From Methanothrix sp. (GTDB lineage Archaea > Halobacteriota > Methanosarcinia > Methanotrichales > Methanotrichaceae), in contig JANYKI010000035.1 in assembly GCA_025361645.1 (NCBI GenBank), positions 1-42,684 on the forward strand: 42,684 nt of DNA, read 5' to 3'. The translations under genes and the position numbers were made by a program. Positions 1,472-17,816 of the stretch are shown piece after piece (positions within the stretch are counted from its first letter, which is position 1; each line of letters begins with the position of its first letter). The notes under the pieces were generated by a model. It did not search any database and had not been told where the DNA came from. It was given only the letters and a program-made list of their open reading frames with translations.

Positions 1472-2575
1472 TTACCTCAGCATCACCCGGCTCAATGTCA
1501 CCAGGAAGAGAGCCATGAGCAGCCACCCCAGCAGCGTCTCTATCACCGTCAGGACCTCATAGCCCTCGATGATGCGGAAATTCTGGGGGGTCTTGCCTAA
1601 GAACTCCATGCTGCTGAAGTAGAAAGCATCATTGGGCGATACGCTCGCCTTTACTTGCGAGTGCGTATCCGCTCCGTCCGGCTGCAGAGCGTTTCCTGCC
1701 CAGAAGACGCCCGCGAAGAGGAGGATGATGATCACGCTCAGCAGAATGGTATACGAAGGGCGCACCCCGTAGCCGCAAGAGATCCAGGCCATACGATCGA
1801 AGAGCTGGGGAAATATCTTGTGCGAGCGCTCTTGCTTCTGTTTTCGGTACTGGTAGTAGCAGTCGTCCTGATCCTCGAACTGCTCCATGTTTCTGAAGTT
1901 TCTGGTGAGCGTCAGGTACACAGAGCCGTTAAAGGGAATATGCTCCTTGATGGAATTCCAGCGCACCGCAATTCGGTTAAAATTGAAGTCCTTGAGGTGG
2001 ATGCTTGATCCTTCCGAGAAGACGGCATCAGACAGATTCAATGTGTACACCTTGGCATTGGCCAGGTGAAAATATTTCTCGAACCTCGCCCGGCCAAAGT
2101 CGGCATCATTGAACTTGGCGCGGGAAAAATTGGCATCGATGGCAAAGTGGGCCCGGGTGAAGTTGGCCTCTCTCTGAAATTCTGCATCGGAAAAGCCGGC
2201 ATCACCCTGAAAATGAGAGCCTGAGAAGTTGGCCGCATTAGTGAATGTGGTGCCGTCAAAATCCACCAGCCCAAAGAAGGCAGCGTGATCGAAGAAGACA
2301 TCGCCCTTGATAACCGAGTATTCGATTTTTATTATTGATTTTATGATCTTAAGCTTATTTTTATTAAAGGGCAGGTCCAGGCGGTGCAGATCCAGGTCCC
2401 CGTAGATGATGACGTTCTCATACTCTACCGGTTTGCCCTGCTCGATCTTTTCCAGGATCTCCTCGGCCTTGATCATTAATAGGCTATCGACCATAAACGA
2501 AGGAAGAAATCGATAATAGCAGATATTCTTTGCGGTGCCATTGAGTTGCTCAAATATTCCATTCCCACCAACCAC
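1472..2575 (-). CDS. Pentapeptide-repeat protein with C-terminal two-helix channel-like membrane module
   Basis: The N-terminal soluble part contains about ten A[ND]F-type pentapeptide repeats (FTNAANFSGSHF, REANFTRAHF, DANFSRAKF and so on, roughly residues 100-190), which form a right-handed quadrilateral beta-helix. A linker rich in charged and aromatic residues follows. The C-terminus has two membrane helices (about 285-305 and 345-365) around a segment FYFSSMEFLGKTP. In related proteins that place holds a pore helix and a potassium-channel-like filter; no GYG is visible here. The protein is a paralogue of the one ending at 17816, sharing [CG]YGVRP and GWLLMALFLVTL. GTG 2575 directly follows the thyA stop, but the start could be the internal Met before IKAEEIL, about 33 residues in. 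No signal peptide is seen, unlike the paralogue. Confidence 0.8.
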   Translation of the reverse strand: MVGGNGIFEQLNGTAKNICYYRFLPSFMVDSLLMIKAEEILEKIEQGKPVEYENVIIYGDLDLHRLDLPFNKNKLKIIKSIIKIEYSVIKGDVFFDHAAFFGLVDFDGTTFTNAANFSGSHFQGDAGFSDAEFQREANFTRAHFAIDANFSRAKFNDADFGRARFEKYFHLANAKVYTLNLSDAVFSEGSSIHLKDFNFNRIAVRWNSIKEHIPFNGSVYLTLTRNFRNMEQFEDQDDCYYQYRKQKQERSHKIFPQLFDRMAWISCGYGVRPSYTILLSVIIILLFAGVFWAGNALQPDGADTHSQVKASVSPNDAFYFSSMEFLGKTPQNFRIIEGYEVLTVIETLLGWLLMALFLVTLSRVMLR

Positions 2576-3241
2576 TCAACTTTCATACGATCCCTTCCCC
2601 AGCAGCATCTTCTCCACAAAGTCCCAGTCATGCTCGTAAATGTGCGCGGAGGCGCTGGTGGTGGAGATTGATCCCGGCTCTGCGCCTACCTCGCGGCTGA
2701 CGTATTGCAGCAGCCTGGCCAGGCCGTAGAGATTGGCGGGATAGGCTCCGGCAAAGTCGTGGCTGCGAAAGAAGATGGAGAGATGCAGGCAACCATCGCG
2801 CAGCTTGAAGTCGTCCACAATCATGCAGGGAACCTCATCTTTGCAGGCATCTACGGGCACGATCCAGGTTACGGCCGTGGCGCGACGGGTATTGGCCGAG
2901 GCCTTGAGCCGCAAGATGACCTGCTCGATCTGGTCCAATGCGGGCACGCCCGGCAGAGACCAGGCACGCAGGCGCTCGCCGTAGGTGTACTCAAAACCGG
3001 GATTATTGCCGGATAAAAGCTGCTGGGCGTACTCTTCCAGACGCTCCTCGTTCCAGGAGTACTCGGCAGGAATCATCTCATGGTAGGGATCCTCCACTAC
3101 CACCTGCATAGATAAGAGCTCCCTAATCCTGGTGCCCCTCTCATCTGTGATCTGTGCCCCCTGACGCCAGATGAGGTTAAGCCCCCGCCGCCAGGCATCG
3201 GAGATGGTTCTTGCCCGAATGAATCTGCCCAGTCTTGCCAT
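2576..3241 (-). CDS. thyA: Thymidylate synthase, methanogen type
   Basis: This enzyme would methylate dUMP to dTMP with a folate-type one-carbon carrier (a pterin in methanogens). At 221 residues it is shorter than bacterial ThyA (about 264). The active-site Cys is C139 in EVPCM, corresponding to the bacterial PCH motif. It is followed by the conserved FFRSHDF..AYPANLYGL block, which contains the dUMP-binding Ser/Arg region and N170. Paired Arg residues lie at 119-120 (TRRATA). The start ATG 3241 follows GGAG. It lies 14 nt downstream of a 51-residue ORF and abuts the pentapeptide gene, so the three may share a transcript. The family call is firm; in vivo cofactor identity is inferred from methanogen biology. 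Confidence 0.88.
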   Translation of the reverse strand: MARLGRFIRARTISDAWRRGLNLIWRQGAQITDERGTRIRELLSMQVVVEDPYHEMIPAEYSWNEERLEEYAQQLLSGNNPGFEYTYGERLRAWSLPGVPALDQIEQVILRLKASANTRRATAVTWIVPVDACKDEVPCMIVDDFKLRDGCLHLSIFFRSHDFAGAYPANLYGLARLLQYVSREVGAEPGSISTTSASAHIYEHDWDFVEKMLLGKGSYES

Positions 3242-3255
3242 GAAAAAGCTCCCGC

Positions 3256-3411
3256 TTATTGCTTCTCGCCCGTCAGCTCCGCCAGCGCCTCGGGCGGAAA
3301 TGCCTTGATGATATCTATTATCTTTACGCGACGTGTTCCAATGCCGTATTTCTTGGCGATGGGCTTCAGATCCCTCATGCAGTACTTCCTGGCGATCTCC
3401 TCAATATCCAT
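3256..3411 (-). CDS. 51-residue basic helical protein upstream of thyA
   Basis: ATG 3411 opens a 51-codon frame ending in TAA just 14 nt before thyA. The protein reads as two or three short helices with many basic residues (IARKYCMRDLKPIAKKYGI, then TRRVKIIDIIKAF). The pattern L-x-x-I-A-x-x-Y-x-I followed by K-x-x-x-I-I-x-x-I resembles small SAP/Rho-N-like helix-extended-loop-helix nucleic-acid-binding folds. That resemblance is an impression, not a proven homology. Close spacing and shared direction suggest cotranscription with thyA. No other function can be assigned. Confidence 0.55.
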   Translation of the reverse strand: MDIEEIARKYCMRDLKPIAKKYGIGTRRVKIIDIIKAFPPEALAELTGEKQ

Positions 3412-3861: not shown

Positions 3862-4401
3862 ATGGGCGACTTCGAGTGGGCGCTGGTGAGCGCCCTCAAC
3901 TCATTCTTCGAGAAGGATGGCATCGCCGCCATAGCCTACCGCCTCAAGCAATCGCGCTTCTCCGGCCAGTTTATGGACATACTGGTGGACTCCAAAATTC
4001 CCGAGTACTATCTGGCCATCGAATGCAAGAGCCTGGATGCGCGCAAGACAAAGTCACTCTACTTCAAGCAGCACTTCAGCCTGGCCGCCGGAGCCCATCA
4101 GATGACACGCGAGACGGATTTCATCACCCGTTCGGGAAGGCAGGGCATATTGGCGGTGGAGCTTCGCTACGGTGCCGGAAAAGCGCGGAGCGCGCACCTG
4201 GTTCCCTGGGGGCAGATCTTCCAGAGATACAACGCCGGAGAGACGGGCCTCTCCCTGCGGGACATCGAGATCAACCCCCCTCTGGAGAGAAAGGGGGGAG
4301 CTTACCGGATCTCTCGGCTGGACATCGTGCGCATCTCCGGATACTTCGATTTGGCCGGGGAAGGCGATGGCCAGGAGGAAGATCCGGCTACAGAGGAATA
4401 A
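3862..4401 (+). CDS. Archaeal PD-(D/E)XK nuclease-fold protein (Hjc-like)
   Basis: This 179-residue protein has a compact nuclease signature in its first third. D39 sits in GQFMDILVD and E54-C-K56 in YLAIECKSL, giving the D...ExK catalytic triad of the restriction-endonuclease/Holliday-junction-resolvase fold, with E17 as a possible fourth acidic residue. The rest contains KQHFSLAAGAHQM and a VPWGQIFQRY segment typical of small archaeal proteins of this type. It is longer than Hjc (about 130) and lacks the full Hjc pattern, so a DNA-repair or structure-specific nuclease role is inferred only. A TATA-like ATTTTTAG lies about 26 nt upstream of ATG 3862 and no ribosome site is seen, suggesting a leaderless mRNA. 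Confidence 0.7.
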   Translation: MGDFEWALVSALNSFFEKDGIAAIAYRLKQSRFSGQFMDILVDSKIPEYYLAIECKSLDARKTKSLYFKQHFSLAAGAHQMTRETDFITRSGRQGILAVELRYGAGKARSAHLVPWGQIFQRYNAGETGLSLRDIEINPPLERKGGAYRISRLDIVRISGYFDLAGEGDGQEEDPATEE

Positions 4402-4405
4402 AAAG

Positions 4406-4460
4406 AGTGAAACTGCCGCGACGCACCCGCGCAGCAAGCTGCGGGGTATTACGTTTAAAA
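4406..4460 (+). repeat. Copy B of the 55-bp dispersed repeat
   Basis: This is the partner of 1406-1460, gapless with 11 mismatches by my count. In this copy CGCAG-CAAG-CTGCG can form a short stem-loop, followed by TTTAAAAAAAA. It separates the nuclease gene from the converging HEPN gene. Confidence 0.7.
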
Positions 4461-4476
4461 AAAATCAATTATGATA

Positions 4477-4851
4477 TTATTTCAAATAAGTAATAATGTG
4501 TTCTGCTTTGTTCAATATTGCAGCCATCGGAATTGTCCCGACCACAATTTTATCGTAATCGCATCTCTTTCGCCATATATGCAATTCTTCTAATTCGGTT
4601 GCAATTTGGGATTCTCCATTACGAGCAAAATGCATTCTAAGTTGTGTATGATCTTGGCCTTTCTTTTTCGGATCTTTAGTTGGCCTAAATCTACCATTAT
4701 CCACTTCATGATGGAATGCATATCCATATGCCGCATAATACGCTCTGCTTGTTGCCGCCCGCTGAGCAGATTCTAAAGTGCAGGGACCATATGCCTGCCC
4801 TCCAAGAAATTGTGCCACGTGAAGACACTCTCTTCCATTAAAACCGCCCAT
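4477..4851 (-). CDS. HEPN-domain protein of a three-gene operon
   Basis: This 124-residue, mostly helical protein has two HEPN-like halves: an N-terminal AQRAATSRAYYAAYGYAFH helix and a C-terminal LEELHIWRKRCDYDK motif. The [ST]RAYYAA...R[AC]DYD pairing is typical of the HEPN superfamily, which includes RNases of toxin-antitoxin, abortive-infection and CRISPR systems. A canonical Rx4-6H motif is not clear: the Arg and the FHH pair are about ten residues apart. Catalytic activity is therefore uncertain. ATG 4851 lies 1 nt after the upstream gene's stop and its GAGGT ribosome site is inside that gene, so translation is coupled. The base composition is visibly more AT-rich than the flanking cbi and nuclease genes, suggesting acquisition. 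Confidence 0.7.
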   Translation of the reverse strand: MGGFNGRECLHVAQFLGGQAYGPCTLESAQRAATSRAYYAAYGYAFHHEVDNGRFRPTKDPKKKGQDHTQLRMHFARNGESQIATELEELHIWRKRCDYDKIVVGTIPMAAILNKAEHIITYLK

Positions 4852-4852
4852 T

Positions 4853-5290
4853 TTATGTTACCTCAGGAGGAAGGAAGTCAGTTGTGAATAAAAACCATCC
4901 GGTAGCATTATCAAGCAAATGATAATAATATTTTTGAATTTTTTCTATCCGATCCATAACGCTTTCGTCGTAATTTGGCACTCTAAGATATAATGCCAAA
5001 TATTCACTATCTGCGTCGCCATCGTCATTTATATTAAGGTATAGTTGTGCTTTGTAATCGAAATATTGGTAAACTTGTTCAGATACAACGCTCAATATTT
5101 CTGTAATTTCAGGATAGCGCTCAAGGTATACGCGCACTTTTGAAGGGGATTCTATTTTGGCATTCATGGCATAGATATTACTTAATGTTTCTTCAATAGA
5201 TATCGAATCAAATCCTGCTGTAGTGGGGTGCATCTTCTCAAATAGCATCCTAAGCGCGGAAAATGGCGAAGCTATAACACAAGAACCCAT
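4853..5290 (-). CDS. Unknown protein, middle gene of the TIGR04255-HEPN operon
   Basis: This protein has 145 residues and no membrane segments. The central part is acidic (NINDDGDADSEYLALYLRV) and predicted as beta strands; the end reads ATGWFLFTTDFLPPE, preceded by a helix around ESVMDRIEKIQKYYYHLL. I recall short proteins with a similar W-[FL]-x-x-TTDF-x-PP ending beside HEPN genes in other genomes, but know no assigned function. The GAGGTGA ribosome site lies inside the 3' end of the upstream gene, 4 nt gap between genes. Its tight placement suggests it acts with its neighbours, for example as a partner or inhibitor of the HEPN protein; that is inference. Confidence 0.65.
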   Translation of the reverse strand: MGSCVIASPFSALRMLFEKMHPTTAGFDSISIEETLSNIYAMNAKIESPSKVRVYLERYPEITEILSVVSEQVYQYFDYKAQLYLNINDDGDADSEYLALYLRVPNYDESVMDRIEKIQKYYYHLLDNATGWFLFTTDFLPPEVT

Positions 5291-5294
5291 TTAA

Positions 5295-6050
5295 CTATTT
5301 CACCTCATCAAACAATTCTCTTAAGGATCTAGAAATACAGCCTTCAAAAATACCTTCGATTTCTTCATGCGCCTTATCGACCCACTCAAATGATTGATCC
5401 ACGTCTATGCTTTGTGGTTTAGATAGGGAGTAATCTATATCGAGCACAAATGCAGAAACATCCTTGCTTTCAGCCACAGCTTGACTTAGTTCAACTTTGC
5501 ATGAATCTCTGTCGTTATTGAATGGGAAAATACAGCCTACAATAAAGCTTGCATATGGCTTTCGCAACCGCTCTCCTAAAAATGGTCTGAATTCAAAATA
5601 GTCATCTAAACACGTGTCTTTTTTTGGAACCTCAATTCTGTTAATGTAACGCAGTCCAATTCTTTGTATCGAATTGATTGTGACCTTCTGGCTCAGCGCT
5701 TTAAAAGCGTATTTTATATGATTATTGAAATCAGCCCACGATTGATAGGGGGTTAATCGACTTACCAACAGCACACGCTCTCCAACTTGAATTATTGCTT
5801 TTTTATCCTCGGAGAGGAAACGAACTAAATCAATTGTTCGAATTTGTGTCCTGGCCATTGGTTTTTTTGTGGGTGCATTATCTTTCGTGGATACATTAAC
5901 CTCTTGGATTGCATGTTGCTCTTTATGAGGAAACTCCGACATTACTTCGTTATAAATTAGCCCCGGTATCGTTATATCCCACTTTGTGTCCTTTCCAAAC
6001 TTAATTTCACAAACAGCTTCAATAATTGGAGGATTATTATATTTTGCCAT
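5295..6050 (-). CDS. TIGR04255 family protein
   Basis: This 251-residue protein opens with NNPPIIEAVCEIKF, the hallmark start of the sporadically distributed TIGR04255 family. Further matches to the family style are a central GERVLLVSRLTPYQSWADF, a QRIGLRYINRIEVP strand, and a C-terminal AHEEIEGIFEGCISRSLRELF helix. Length fits the family (about 250). No enzymatic function is established to my knowledge; the patchy distribution is typical of accessory or defence genes. ATG 6050 is preceded by GAGGGG at a 5-nt spacing. It is the first confident gene of an operon with the unknown 145-residue protein and the HEPN protein. Codon use is AT-rich compared with both flanks. Confidence 0.78.
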   Translation of the reverse strand: MAKYNNPPIIEAVCEIKFGKDTKWDITIPGLIYNEVMSEFPHKEQHAIQEVNVSTKDNAPTKKPMARTQIRTIDLVRFLSEDKKAIIQVGERVLLVSRLTPYQSWADFNNHIKYAFKALSQKVTINSIQRIGLRYINRIEVPKKDTCLDDYFEFRPFLGERLRKPYASFIVGCIFPFNNDRDSCKVELSQAVAESKDVSAFVLDIDYSLSKPQSIDVDQSFEWVDKAHEEIEGIFEGCISRSLRELFDEVK

Positions 6051-6290
6051 CTACGCCCCTCGAATGCCTACGATGAATATCATGCATTGGTGCTCGTTTC
6101 CATTACCATTGCATGCTACTATATCCCTCTTTTCTATATAAAATTTTGTGCAAATTTTAGACTCAACCAGTAATACGCAACTGTCGGAATTCCTCATCAT
6201 CACCGCGACAGAACCGTATGAAGAAAAATAATAATAGTAGAGTACAAATGAATATTTACTTAATTTAACTCCAGAAAAGTTTACTTGCAT
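6051..6290 (-). CDS. Possible small leader ORF of the TIGR04255-HEPN operon
   Basis: This 79-codon frame runs from ATG 6290 (AAGG a few bases upstream) and its TAG directly touches the ATG of the TIGR04255 gene. The ribosome site of that gene lies inside this frame, the same arrangement seen at the other two junctions of the operon. The product has an odd aromatic run (FVLYYYYF) and resembles nothing I know. A shorter version could begin at the double ATG 6200/6197. It could equally be a non-coding leader. Confidence 0.28.
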   Translation of the reverse strand: MQVNFSGVKLSKYSFVLYYYYFSSYGSVAVMMRNSDSCVLLVESKICTKFYIEKRDIVACNGNGNEHQCMIFIVGIRGA

Positions 6291-6325
6291 TAACCTTTTA
6301 TTCCAGCCCGATTCTCCACAAAGCC

Positions 6326-6838
6326 ATGAAGCTTCCGGGCACGGCGACACAAGAGGAGAACATCTCCATCGCCATGGGAAAGCTGGACATAACGCCGTCC
6401 CAGGTCTTCCTGGACATAGGCTGCGGCTCGGGGGCAGTATCCCTGGCCGCCTCTCGCTACACTGACCGGATCTACGGCATCGACCGACGAGAGGAGGCAG
6501 TGCAGATGTGCAGGTCAAAGGTTCCTGGAGGAAATTTTTCCCTGGGCGAGGCCGCCTCCCTTCTGCCCGGCCTGCCCGAGGTGGACCGATGCTTTATCGG
6601 CGGCACGCGCGGCATCGACGAGTTCCTGCCTCTGCTACTGAAGAAGGCACGCCCCGGCTGCGTAATTGTGGCCGACCTGGCCCGCCTGGGCATAGCCGCC
6701 CGCGTGGCAGAGATGATGAAAGAAGCCAAAATCTTCCAGGAGCTTATCCAGATTCATATCGCAAGGGGCTACGATTTAGGGGGAGACATCGCTCTAAGAC
6801 CGGTAAACCCCATCTTCATGGTGATTGGTAAATGTTGA
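6326..6838 (+). CDS. cbiT: Cobalt-precorrin C15-methyltransferase (decarboxylating)
   Basis: CbiT is the SAM-dependent enzyme that methylates C15 and decarboxylates the ring C acetate side chain of the cobalt-corrin intermediate in the anaerobic B12 pathway. The N-terminus (LPGTATQEENISIAMGKLDI) and the class I Rossmann motif DIGCGSGAVSLAA (about residues 30-42) fit the family, followed by YGIDRREEAV (motif II) and the GGTRGIDEF loop. Length 170 is slightly short of the usual 185-195. The partner CbiE is the last gene of the same operon; the two are fused in some bacteria as CobL. No ribosome site is visible before ATG 6326, suggesting a leaderless operon start. It overlaps cbiL by 7 nt. Confidence 0.9.
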   Translation: MKLPGTATQEENISIAMGKLDITPSQVFLDIGCGSGAVSLAASRYTDRIYGIDRREEAVQMCRSKVPGGNFSLGEAASLLPGLPEVDRCFIGGTRGIDEFLPLLLKKARPGCVIVADLARLGIAARVAEMMKEAKIFQELIQIHIARGYDLGGDIALRPVNPIFMVIGKC

Positions 6839-15070: not shown

Positions 15071-16300
15071 TTGATATCTATTTCAAAAGGGTTATTTGCT
15101 GATTTATTGGCGCAAGGAGGCATATTTCAGTCTAGAGATGTCCTGCGTCCTACCTATACGCCAAGCGAACTGCCTCATAGAAACGAGCAGATCAACGGCC
15201 TGGCATCCGTTCTAGTTCCTGCATTAAGAGGAGAAACCCCCTCCAATGTTCTCATCTATGGAAAAACCGGCACCGGTAAAACTGCAGTTGCCAAGTACGT
15301 GGGAAAAGAGCTAGAAGAAGCTAGTTTTGGCGATATGAAGTGTACAGTGATCTACATCAACTGCGAGGTGGTAGATACTCAATACCGAATCCTGGCTCAT
15401 TTAGCAAGACACTTTGATAAAGAGATTCCGATGACTGGCTGGCCCACAGATCAGGTCTACGCCGAGTTCAGAAATGCGGTAGATGAAGAGAAACAAGTCG
15501 TCGTGATAATGCTGGATGAAGTAGACAAGCTGGTGAGAAAGGGAGACGATGTTCTTTACAACCTCTCTCGTATTAACTCTGATCTGCTCCGTTCTAAGGT
15601 TAGTATCATCGGCATATCCAACGACCTCAAGTTCACAGAGTTTCTTGATCCAAGAGTAAAAAGCTCCCTCGGAGAAGATGAGATCATCTTTCCGCCTTAC
15701 AACGCCGAGCAGATTAGAGACATCCTAGAACAGAGAGCAAAGCTCTCCTTTAGTCCCGGTGTCCTTCAAGAAGGTGTCATACCACTGTGTGCTGCTTTTG
15801 CGGCCCAAGAGCATGGCGACGCTCGTAAAGCTTTGGATCTCCTTCGCATATCAGGCGAATTAGCTGAAAGAGCCCGTTCTGCTATTGTAGCCGAGGATCA
15901 TGTGCGTTCAGCTCGCGAAAAGATTGAGCAGGACCGAGTAGAAGAGGTAATCAAGACTCTGCCCACTCAGTCCAAGTTGGTACTCTACAGCATTGTTCTA
16001 CTAGAGGAACAGGGAACAAGAAATATCACCACGAGTGCCGTTTACAACATGTACAAACAACTCTGCCCTCTGGTTGAGACTGATTTTCTGACACATCGCA
16101 GGATAACGGATCTCATTGCAGAGCTGGATATGCTGGGCATATTACATACGATTGTAATCAGCAAAGGTAGATACGGTCGGACCAAAGAGATCACTCTTAG
16201 TGTTTACTCTGGTAAGCTTAAGGCTACGCTGCAACAGGATTACCGGCTGAAGGTTCTGGGTAGTGTCAATGTGCCCCAGCAAGCTCGACTGGGTCTCTGA
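15071..16300 (+). CDS. orc1: Orc1/Cdc6 replication initiator
   Basis: This 409-residue AAA+ protein binds ORBs and loads MCM. It has Walker A GKTGTGKT (about residues 64-71), Walker B VVVIMLDEVD (about 143-152), sensor 1 GISND (about 180), sensor 2 GDARKALDLLR, and a C-terminal winged helix (about 310-395; SKLVLYSIVLLEEQG, HRRITDLIAELDMLGIL). Length and order are standard for archaeal Orc1-1. The start is TTG 15071 with GAGGGG upstream. The adjacent ORBs indicate that it recognises its own origin, as in other archaea. It lies only 7 nt before the following pentapeptide-repeat gene. Confidence 0.95.
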   Translation: MISISKGLFADLLAQGGIFQSRDVLRPTYTPSELPHRNEQINGLASVLVPALRGETPSNVLIYGKTGTGKTAVAKYVGKELEEASFGDMKCTVIYINCEVVDTQYRILAHLARHFDKEIPMTGWPTDQVYAEFRNAVDEEKQVVVIMLDEVDKLVRKGDDVLYNLSRINSDLLRSKVSIIGISNDLKFTEFLDPRVKSSLGEDEIIFPPYNAEQIRDILEQRAKLSFSPGVLQEGVIPLCAAFAAQEHGDARKALDLLRISGELAERARSAIVAEDHVRSAREKIEQDRVEEVIKTLPTQSKLVLYSIVLLEEQGTRNITTSAVYNMYKQLCPLVETDFLTHRRITDLIAELDMLGILHTIVISKGRYGRTKEITLSVYSGKLKATLQQDYRLKVLGSVNVPQQARLGL

Positions 16301-16307
16301 CTTTATA

Positions 16308-17816
16308 ATGGATTTAAGTGAAGTGGTGATCTTGAGGATATTCCTGTTGCTGGTAATAACTCTAACAGCATTGGTGAACGGGGCAGCTTCGGATAATGCG
16401 TTGCCTTTTCTGGAATCCTTTCCGCTGAGGGAGATATCAGCGCAAGAGGTCATGGCAAATGCAAATAATAGCCTCACCGTCTATGACCGGGTAATCATCA
16501 ATGGCGATTTATTTTTAAATAATAATCAATATAATCCCCTAAGGATAACAAATTCAGTATTCAAGGATAATGTAAGCTGCAAAGGGGTAACGTTTTATGG
16601 AGATGTGAATTTCGAGAACACTACATTCCAAAAAAATGCTATTTTCAATGAAACAAAATTCTTAACGGCGGCAAATTTTAATGCGACTCGTTTCCTGGGA
16701 GAAGCAACCTTCAATATGTCTCGCTTTCCTGATAGCGGAACTTTTGATTTTACCTATTTCAATCGTGTAGCCAATTTTGAAAGTGTCTGGTTTGACAAAT
16801 TTGCTACTTTTTATAATGCCACATTTATGGGAGACGCTCAGTTTTCTTTCTCGGAGTTCAATGGTGCTTATGCTAACTTCGAATCCGTACGCTGCATTAG
16901 AGATGTCTATTTTTACGGCAGTCAGTTTAATACTTATTGCACCTTCGCTAATGCGCGACTGGAGAAGAATGCAGACTTTCATGCAACAAAATACTCAAAT
17001 GGCGTAGGCTTTTTCCAAACGTGGATTTTTGGACAGGCCGATTTTGCTCGATCCCGCTTTATTGCGGATTCCATCTTTTCTCAAGCTCACTTCAACGACA
17101 CGGCCAACTTCTTGAGTACCAACTTCGATGGACCCGTATTCTTCAATGACACTGTATTTTGCAAAGATGCAAATTTTGACAATTCACAATTCCAGGCGCC
17201 CACAGATATCTCATATGCGGTTTTTAACGGCGATCTGAAATTAAATAGCACAAAGATTGTCAGGATGGTATTAGATGGCGCAACCTTCGGCAAGGGATCT
17301 CGTTTGTATCTGGCCAAAGCAGATATTAACCGTCTGATCGTGAGCTGGAGTCAGATACGTGACATCCTCAGTTTCGACACTGCGGCTTACCTCTCGTTGA
17401 TCAAGAATTATAAGGACCTCGGCCAGAGCAACGATGCCAATGAATGCTATTATGAGTATCGATATCTAAATCAGGTTCGTAAGCCGATCGGCTTTTCTAA
17501 GTTTCTGGATACGCTGGCCTGGCTCACCTGCGGTTATGGGGTGCGCCCTCACTATGCGCTTTTCTGCGGAATGGTGATAATTCTTATTTTCTCCTTTATT
17601 TATTGGACCGGCAGGGGTGTGGAAGGCTTTCATGACATCCACGGTCACCAGCTCATGGTAGCTTCCCTCTTCTACAGCACAATTGCTTTTACTGCTAATT
17701 CAAAAGGGCTTCCTCTGCGAGGGCATTATAAATACCTGGGAATTGCGGAGGGCATTGTTGGATGGCTGCTTATGGCCCTATTTCTGGTGACGTTAGGCAG
17801 GCTGATCATTGGATAA
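16308..17816 (+). CDS. Exported pentapeptide-repeat protein with two C-terminal membrane helices
   Basis: Starting at ATG 16308 the protein has 502 residues and a signal-like hydrophobic N-terminus (VVILRIFLLLVITLTALVNG). About 25 degenerate A-x-F pentapeptide repeats (DVNFENTTFQKNAIFNETKF, AANFNATRF, ATFYNATF and so on) fill residues 75-320, giving a long beta-helix. A linker with CYYEYRYLNQVRKPIGF leads to CGYGVRPHYALFCG and two membrane helices flanking SLFYSTIAFTANSKGLPL, where two-helix channels carry the pore loop. The filter GYG is absent. It is a paralogue of the protein at 1472-2575 but has an extra exported beta-helix. Several N-x-[ST] sites fit an outside location. Confidence 0.82.
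   Translation: MDLSEVVILRIFLLLVITLTALVNGAASDNALPFLESFPLREISAQEVMANANNSLTVYDRVIINGDLFLNNNQYNPLRITNSVFKDNVSCKGVTFYGDVNFENTTFQKNAIFNETKFLTAANFNATRFLGEATFNMSRFPDSGTFDFTYFNRVANFESVWFDKFATFYNATFMGDAQFSFSEFNGAYANFESVRCIRDVYFYGSQFNTYCTFANARLEKNADFHATKYSNGVGFFQTWIFGQADFARSRFIADSIFSQAHFNDTANFLSTNFDGPVFFNDTVFCKDANFDNSQFQAPTDISYAVFNGDLKLNSTKIVRMVLDGATFGKGSRLYLAKADINRLIVSWSQIRDILSFDTAAYLSLIKNYKDLGQSNDANECYYEYRYLNQVRKPIGFSKFLDTLAWLTCGYGVRPHYALFCGMVIILIFSFIYWTGRGVEGFHDIHGHQLMVASLFYSTIAFTANSKGLPLRGHYKYLGIAEGIVGWLLMALFLVTLGRLIIG

Follow-up and report, generated by a model that had tools for sequence, protein, structure and literature searches.

A TIGR04255-MID-HEPN operon of Methanothrix is probably a mobile tripartite toxin-antitoxin-like module

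The DNA analyzed here, referred to as the window, is a 42,684-nt stretch of a Methanothrix contig (JANYKI010000035.1) that carries three coupled genes on the minus strand. The first gene of the operon encodes a TIGR04255 protein of 251 amino acids (aa) (positions 5295 to 6050), the second a 145-aa protein named MID (4853 to 5290), and the third a 124-aa HEPN protein (4477 to 4851). The intergenic gaps are 4 nt between TIGR04255 and MID and 1 nt between MID and HEPN, and Shine-Dalgarno-like sequences on the minus strand, GAGGTGA for MID (5300 to 5306) and GAGGT for HEPN (4860 to 4864), lie within the 3' ends of the TIGR04255 and MID genes, respectively. The G+C content of the trio is 38.2%, a value near the lowest of 823 sliding 1,574-bp windows, compared with 51.5% for the whole window, and GC3 is 0.30 to 0.34 in the trio versus 0.63 to 0.77 in the flanking genes. 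The gene coupling, the 1- and 4-nt gaps, the internal ribosome sites, and the deviant composition had all been described in a first-pass annotation of the sequence and were confirmed. The low G+C content by itself is not unique, since other AT-rich stretches of the window occur at about 14 to 17 kb and 28 kb. In single-sequence searches, MID and HEPN of the window matched no family in Pfam, NCBIfam, or PADLOC, and none of the three proteins had a significant match among the antiphage models of PADLOC-DB 2.0.0. Matches to MATH, IOR, and DUF6046 (E values of 0.005 to 0.03) were judged to have arisen by chance. Elsewhere in the window, two pentapeptide-repeat membrane proteins (1472 to 2575 and 16263 to 17816) have similar C-terminal ends.

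The trio is contained in an accessory insert (4402 to 6325, no strand) between an ORF of 179 aa (3862 to 4401, plus strand) and cbiT (6326 to 6838, plus strand), on whose side cobalamin genes are found. In several other Methanothrix genomes (L246, L248, L252, L253, L255, and L259), only 80 to 100 bp separate the 179-aa ORF from cbiT. The nearest relative (L241; 91% CbiT identity) has an unrelated 1.36-kb insert with a G+C content of 36.8% and a 225-aa ORF in the same place; its coordinates are 1928 to 3290, the counterpart of 4402 to 6325 in the window. The gap between the two flanking genes thus holds different AT-rich inserts, which indicates that the site takes AT-rich cargo. The full trio was found in 3 of 26 Methanothrix genomes (G000, G009, and G020). 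The accessory character postulated earlier is therefore borne out, and the trio can also be regarded as mobile, given the empty site in relatives, the different AT-rich insert in L241, and the plasmid and viral copies described below.

The first gene product matches the NCBIfam model TIGR04255 with 142.1 bits (cut-off, 30) over model positions 1 to 251 of 252. Its AlphaFold2 model has a pLDDT of 94.6, and the best coherent group of Foldseek matches comprises TBPs, a weak similarity (probability of 0.9 to 0.98, E value of ~2e-3, and TM score of 0.26 to 0.29), with giant-virus TBPs also being matched (E values of 1e-4 to 1e-3). This suggests, as a lead from the predicted model, a duplicated TBP-like saddle topology. 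The duplication is topological only, a half-versus-half sequence comparison being negative, and PDB sequence matches (9hnh and 9zau) were discarded as repetitive or marginal. No resemblance to SecB was found in Pfam profiles or among the top 50 Foldseek matches. In five large phyla, the share of sampled genomes that carry TIGR04255 genes is approximately 7 to 15% each. The family name is absent from the searchable open literature (5.39 million papers), in which no published description of the trio was found either, and the trio is not represented among the PADLOC models. To our knowledge, neither a function nor an operon context is on record for TIGR04255. At loci L133 to L142, mostly from one archaeal genus, TIGR04255 genes are apparently solitary, with no coupled second or third gene, and may possibly have been domesticated.

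MID belongs to no family in Pfam, NCBIfam, PADLOC, or the PDB. It is predicted to consist of a disordered N-terminal extension (approximately residues 1 to 24) and a conserved C-terminal alpha-alpha-beta-beta-alpha-beta domain. In the AlphaFold2 model of the window MID, the pLDDT is 51 to 61 for residues 1 to 30 and above 90 for most of the remainder, a pattern in keeping with a disordered handle that is attached to a folded domain. Foldseek matches of MID (OsmC, BolA, the KH domain of Era, and RimP) all had E values above 0.04, so that a KH-II-like fold is a hint at most.

Although the window HEPN alone has no Pfam match, 30 of 44 HEPN relatives match PF05168 (HEPN-T) at an E value of ≤0.1 (best, 2.4e-9), and a profile of the family retrieves 9xbd (6.5e-9), the retron-Kva2 HEPN 36ht (7.7e-5), and AF0298 2hsb (0.03) from the PDB. 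These matches support the assignment of the third gene product, through its family, to the HEPN-T type. The first-pass annotation had pointed to the lack of a clear Rx4-6H motif, and the canonical motif was indeed not found in the family, the His position being occupied by Asp in 43 of the 44 sequences. Six residues, R31, R36, Y38, H68, R94, and Y99, are invariant in all 44. In the profile alignment, H68 (codon at 4648 to 4650, minus strand) aligns with the catalytic H64 of the retron-Kva2 HEPN, and Y38 (codon at 4738 to 4740, minus strand) aligns with its substrate-positioning Y40-42, which falls on the SRAYY segment of the family. The Rx4-6H motif is replaced by R94-x3-D98-Y99 (4555 to 4572, minus strand), in which R94 aligns with Kva2 R122; the Kva2 segment R-GIVDY falls on the R-x3-DY column, although it scores weakly when taken alone. 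The retron-Kva2 HEPN also lacks the canonical motif, its H64A, R122A, and Y40-42A mutants lose defense against T5, the HEPN drives a loss of tRNA, and triggering of the retron yields tRNA fragments only if the HEPN is intact (PMC13405049). An alternative His site was predicted in 2013 by Anantharaman et al. for AF0298-like HEPN-T and AbiV proteins (PMC3710099). The combination that characterizes the alternative site in AF0298, AbiV, and type IX retrons, an upstream His together with the motif Arg, is present as H68 and R94 in 44 of 44 sequences. Since these invariant residues align with Kva2 residues needed for defense, the HEPN protein is probably catalytic, with an alternative H...R active site. 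The mechanism, which had been left open on the grounds of the missing motif, is thereby narrowed to a site like that of retron-Kva2, and a noncanonical site that was mutation-tested in a retron in 2026 would extend to a widespread operon-borne family.

A tblastn search of plasmids with MID gave one match, on Thermus brockianus pTB1, where MID is flanked by TIGR04255 and an unannotated HEPN gene. A total of 84,980 genomes were then scanned by TIGR04255 alone, followed by iterated HMMs for MID and HEPN. At 46 of the 71 assessable scan loci, MID and HEPN lie directly downstream of TIGR04255 in this fixed order. The approximately 46 further loci of the trio come from both Archaea and Bacteria and span roughly 18 groups at the phylum level, with hosts in Methanomicrobiales, Acidobacteriota, Zixibacteria, Desulfobacterota, Chloroflexota, Nitrospinota, Nitrospirota, Bacillota, Bipolaricaulota, Calditrichota, Planctomycetota, Actinomycetota, Cloacimonadota, Verrucomicrobiota, Thermotogota, and Pseudomonadota, and the near relatives of the window's trio host are Methanosaeta/Methanothrix metagenome-assembled genomes. 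Between any two of the three proteins, the pairwise distances are correlated (coefficients of 0.75 to 0.80; 41 loci; none of 2,000 permutations was as high), which fits co-inheritance of the trio as a unit across distant hosts. The earlier proposal that the three genes form one module is upheld by these correlations and by the order kept across phyla, and the concern that the trio might be absent elsewhere is removed by its recurrence at about 46 loci in two domains of life.

Divergent TIGR04255 loci keep the same layout with a different third gene. PIN (VapC-like) genes occupy this position at 18 loci of the scan and the census (all 7 tested exceed the Pfam cut-off), MazF/PemK genes at 3 loci (3 of 3 pass), and, tentatively, HicA-like genes, which fall below the cut-off, at 3 loci (L192, L206, and L233). 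A census of six phylum-level samples, which was blind to the downstream gene and shares a few loci with the scan, yielded 123 assessable loci with 19 HEPN, 5 PIN, 3 MazF, 3 HicA-like, 29 QSCD, and 31 RWL third genes, the remaining 33 loci having no recognized third gene. QSCD and RWL are names coined here after sequence motifs for two groups found at 29 plus 6 and 31 plus 4 loci, respectively. The QSCD proteins (for example, L077:3404-3940, L165:2584-3162, and L087:7090-7626) are 178 to 260 aa long, have a conserved [ST][QN][ST]CD motif, match no Pfam family, and possibly represent a new toxin family; several of their genes precede a gene for a type III restriction-like helicase, and at several loci the second gene encodes an HTH. 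The RWL proteins (for example, L101:7373-7858, L097:4598-5047, and L103:4785-5228) are about 130 to 170 aa long, carry the motif RWLHP..RRPTSAAF, match no Pfam family, and occur in cyanobacteria and other phyla. In a tree of 192 TIGR04255 sequences, the third-gene classes cluster, yet they change at least 19 times (with the class 'other' left out); therefore, toxins of unrelated fold have been swapped beneath one first gene. A common TIGR04255-binding motif in the second genes of the HEPN and PIN types was not found by hhalign, and a visual likeness ('GSTV.I') was dropped for this reason. Being placed ahead of known RNase toxins, the orphan family TIGR04255 acquires a testable function, and its loci point to further, putative toxin families.

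MID adjoins HEPN in all trios and also where TIGR04255 is absent. The source genome contains two additional MID-HEPN pairs, one (contig C134, L020) behind a DUF2299 protein (Pfam E value of 7e-20) and the other (C16, L026) lacking a third gene and having a short MID. DUF2299 genes are coupled to MID-HEPN instead of TIGR04255 at L020:3908-4378, L021, and L287 (the Pfam match being that at L020), and DUF2299 is a candidate for a second, archaeal family of third components; it is not mentioned in the searchable open literature. Elsewhere, MID-HEPN follows protein families of 205 to 211 aa or 234 aa, the former, which has no Pfam match, being located upstream of long-extension MID-HEPN at L270, L271, L273, L274, and L275. 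Short-MID-HEPN pairs adjoin Eco57I-like restriction-modification genes at L025:4567-5300, L026, and L027, the last of which also adjoins a large ATPase-like gene cluster; these pairs are two-component versions, and the islands that hold them are likely defense islands. The MID extension comprises 33 to 104 residues (median, 80; n = 68) with TIGR04255, 72 to 107 residues (n = 9; p = 9e-5) with other coupled third genes, and, in pairs lacking a coupled third gene (n = 13), mostly 12 to 34 residues (median, 34; exceptional cases reach 97). The difference between loci with TIGR04255 and those lacking a coupled third gene has a p value of 4e-6; both tests ignore kinship and are subject to ambiguous start codons. 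A first, ungrouped comparison, in which MID extensions at loci having TIGR04255 were set against those at loci lacking it, showed no significant difference (p = 0.46), since another coupled partner is present in half of the latter set, and sorting by any third gene was a post hoc step taken after this negative result. A long extension with no evident partner occurs at L306 and L018/L019. Thus, the MID extension is long mainly where a third gene is present.

Among 149 genes adjoining the trios, there are 6 N6/N4 DNA methylase genes and 8 ResIII matches. The number of methylases expected is 0.32 (242 matches per 126.5 Mb in the same genomes), which corresponds to an approximately 19-fold enrichment (p ~1e-6), a statistic that ignores shared ancestry among the neighbors. 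However, many copies sit among housekeeping genes, so that the trio is enriched near defense genes and not confined there, and the placement in defense islands envisaged in the first-pass annotation holds only in part. TIGR04255 modules were also found on three plasmids, from Thermus, Rhizobium, and Crinalium, and on four viral contigs, one of them adjoining a portal-like gene; MID was not found in viral contigs. On the conjugative Rhizobium plasmid pCB3060_2 (L111:2159-5738), the TIGR04255 gene adjoins a multiubiquitin/ThiF/DUF6527 cluster.

The conserved operon, the invariant residues, the exchange of toxins and of partners, and the link between the MID extension and a third gene were all observed here. 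By analogy with known systems, the trio is best read, with a probability of roughly 0.6, as a mobile tripartite toxin-antitoxin-like module with an HEPN RNase toxin, a MID antitoxin, and TIGR04255 as stabilizer or sensor of the antitoxin. HEPN would be a metal-independent RNase acting as a dimer, in which H68 and R94 would form the alternative active site and Y38/Y39 and R36 would hold the RNA, perhaps a tRNA as in retron-Kva2. MID would bind HEPN through its conserved C-terminal domain, and TIGR04255 would hold the disordered N-terminal extension of MID and thereby keep MID folded or protected. If TIGR04255 were captured, titrated, or lost, for example, through a phage product, MID would fail and HEPN would halt the cell. 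We infer the toxicity, the RNA target, the formation of a complex, the chaperone or sensor role, and the trigger. The assignment of HEPN as the effector and of the other two proteins as its controllers, already made in the first-pass annotation, is favored by this analogy and by the swapping of PIN and MazF toxins into the same position.

TIGR04255 may instead be a nucleic acid sensor whose saddle recognizes foreign DNA, RNA, or RNA-DNA hybrids and activates HEPN through MID, which would then be an adaptor and not an antitoxin. The TBP-like fold was recovered in both structure libraries, the TBP-like domain of RNase HIII binds RNA-DNA hybrids, such domains also occur fused to HEPN domains of the RNase LS family (PMC3710099), and restriction-modification genes neighbor the trio, all of which would suit a sensor. 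However, the fold similarity is weak (TM score of 0.26 to 0.35), and both the MazF and PIN TA RNases at the same position and the MID-HEPN pairs without the first gene suit an antitoxin better than an adaptor, which makes the sensor reading unlikely.

It is more doubtful still that the HEPN is catalytically dead and binds RNA uncut, with the trio serving as a regulatory, nontoxic cassette. The missing Rx4-6H motif and the Asp in place of His could be taken in this sense, since some motif-less HEPN families are thought to be RNA binding only (PMC3710099), but the alternative pair of H and R, which is invariant, corresponds to the active site that mutagenesis proved essential in retron-Kva2, and genes that replace HEPN as the third gene encode nucleases. 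Least probable is pure addiction, in which the module would stabilize a plasmid or island, have no role in defense, and be triggered by gene loss only. Such a role would agree with the plasmid copies, the patchy occurrence among Methanothrix genomes, and the housekeeping neighbors in many genomes; it would require neither a third component nor an extension linked to that component, and it is at odds with methylase-rich neighborhoods and with phage-borne TIGR04255 modules adjoining structural genes.

In the known system RNase LS RnlA-RnlB, a TBP-like module (PMC3710099) and a HEPN module also occur together and the antitoxin is separate, but the toxin is a single large protein. RnlA is not among the top 50 Foldseek matches of TIGR04255, and the idea that the trio is a split-gene version of RnlA-RnlB was reduced to a lead and not homology, the RnlB match being marginal and confined to 1 of 46 MID members (E value of 0.079). 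The HEPN/MNT TA systems likewise place the gene of a small HEPN toxin after that of its partner and are common in archaea and thermophiles (PMC7641770; PMC3710099), but MID members have no nucleotidyltransferase match, and the trio has a third gene and an alternative active site. Retron-Kva2 (type IX) shares the HEPN-T fold by profile, the noncanonical H...R site, the YY motif, and the keeping of a toxin within a multiprotein control system; in contrast, the trio operon has three genes only, with no reverse transcriptase or winged-helix protein and apparently no noncoding RNA, and its HEPN has 124 aa instead of 174 aa.

In TAC systems, HigBA, HicAB, and MqsRA share a single family of SecB-like chaperones, which acts via a C-terminal antitoxin extension, and these extensions are dissimilar between the TA families (PMC5105189). 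In CmdTAC, once a phage capsid protein has removed the chaperone, degradation of the antitoxin releases the toxin (PMC11618068). Like the TAC systems, including HigBA1-SecB of M. tuberculosis and CmdTAC, the TIGR04255 modules are three-gene operons in which one family of third protein accompanies several unrelated TA families (here, those with HEPN, PIN, and MazF third genes), the antitoxin extension is tied to the third protein (here, with exceptions), and the toxins are predicted to block translation. Unlike in TAC systems, the third protein is the TBP-like TIGR04255 and not SecB, and the toxins are HEPN, PIN, and MazF and not HigB, MqsR, or CmdT. The arrangement is also a mirror image, with TIGR04255 first in the operon, the extension N-terminal instead of C-terminal, and the toxin last. 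By this analogy, the TIGR04255 modules may be TAC-like in their working, but they are not TAC members because SecB is absent. We know of no dedicated third-protein control of TA systems other than that by SecB-like chaperones. The chances are about even that TIGR04255 defines a large superfamily of tripartite conflict modules, in which one TBP-like protein would control many second genes (antitoxin or adaptor) and interchangeable third genes (HEPN, PIN, MazF, and no fewer than two unknown toxin families, which may be new) as a SecB-independent counterpart of TAC across Archaea and Bacteria. If the modules do work in a TAC-like manner, third-protein control of TA systems has also evolved with an unrelated fold and extends into Archaea.
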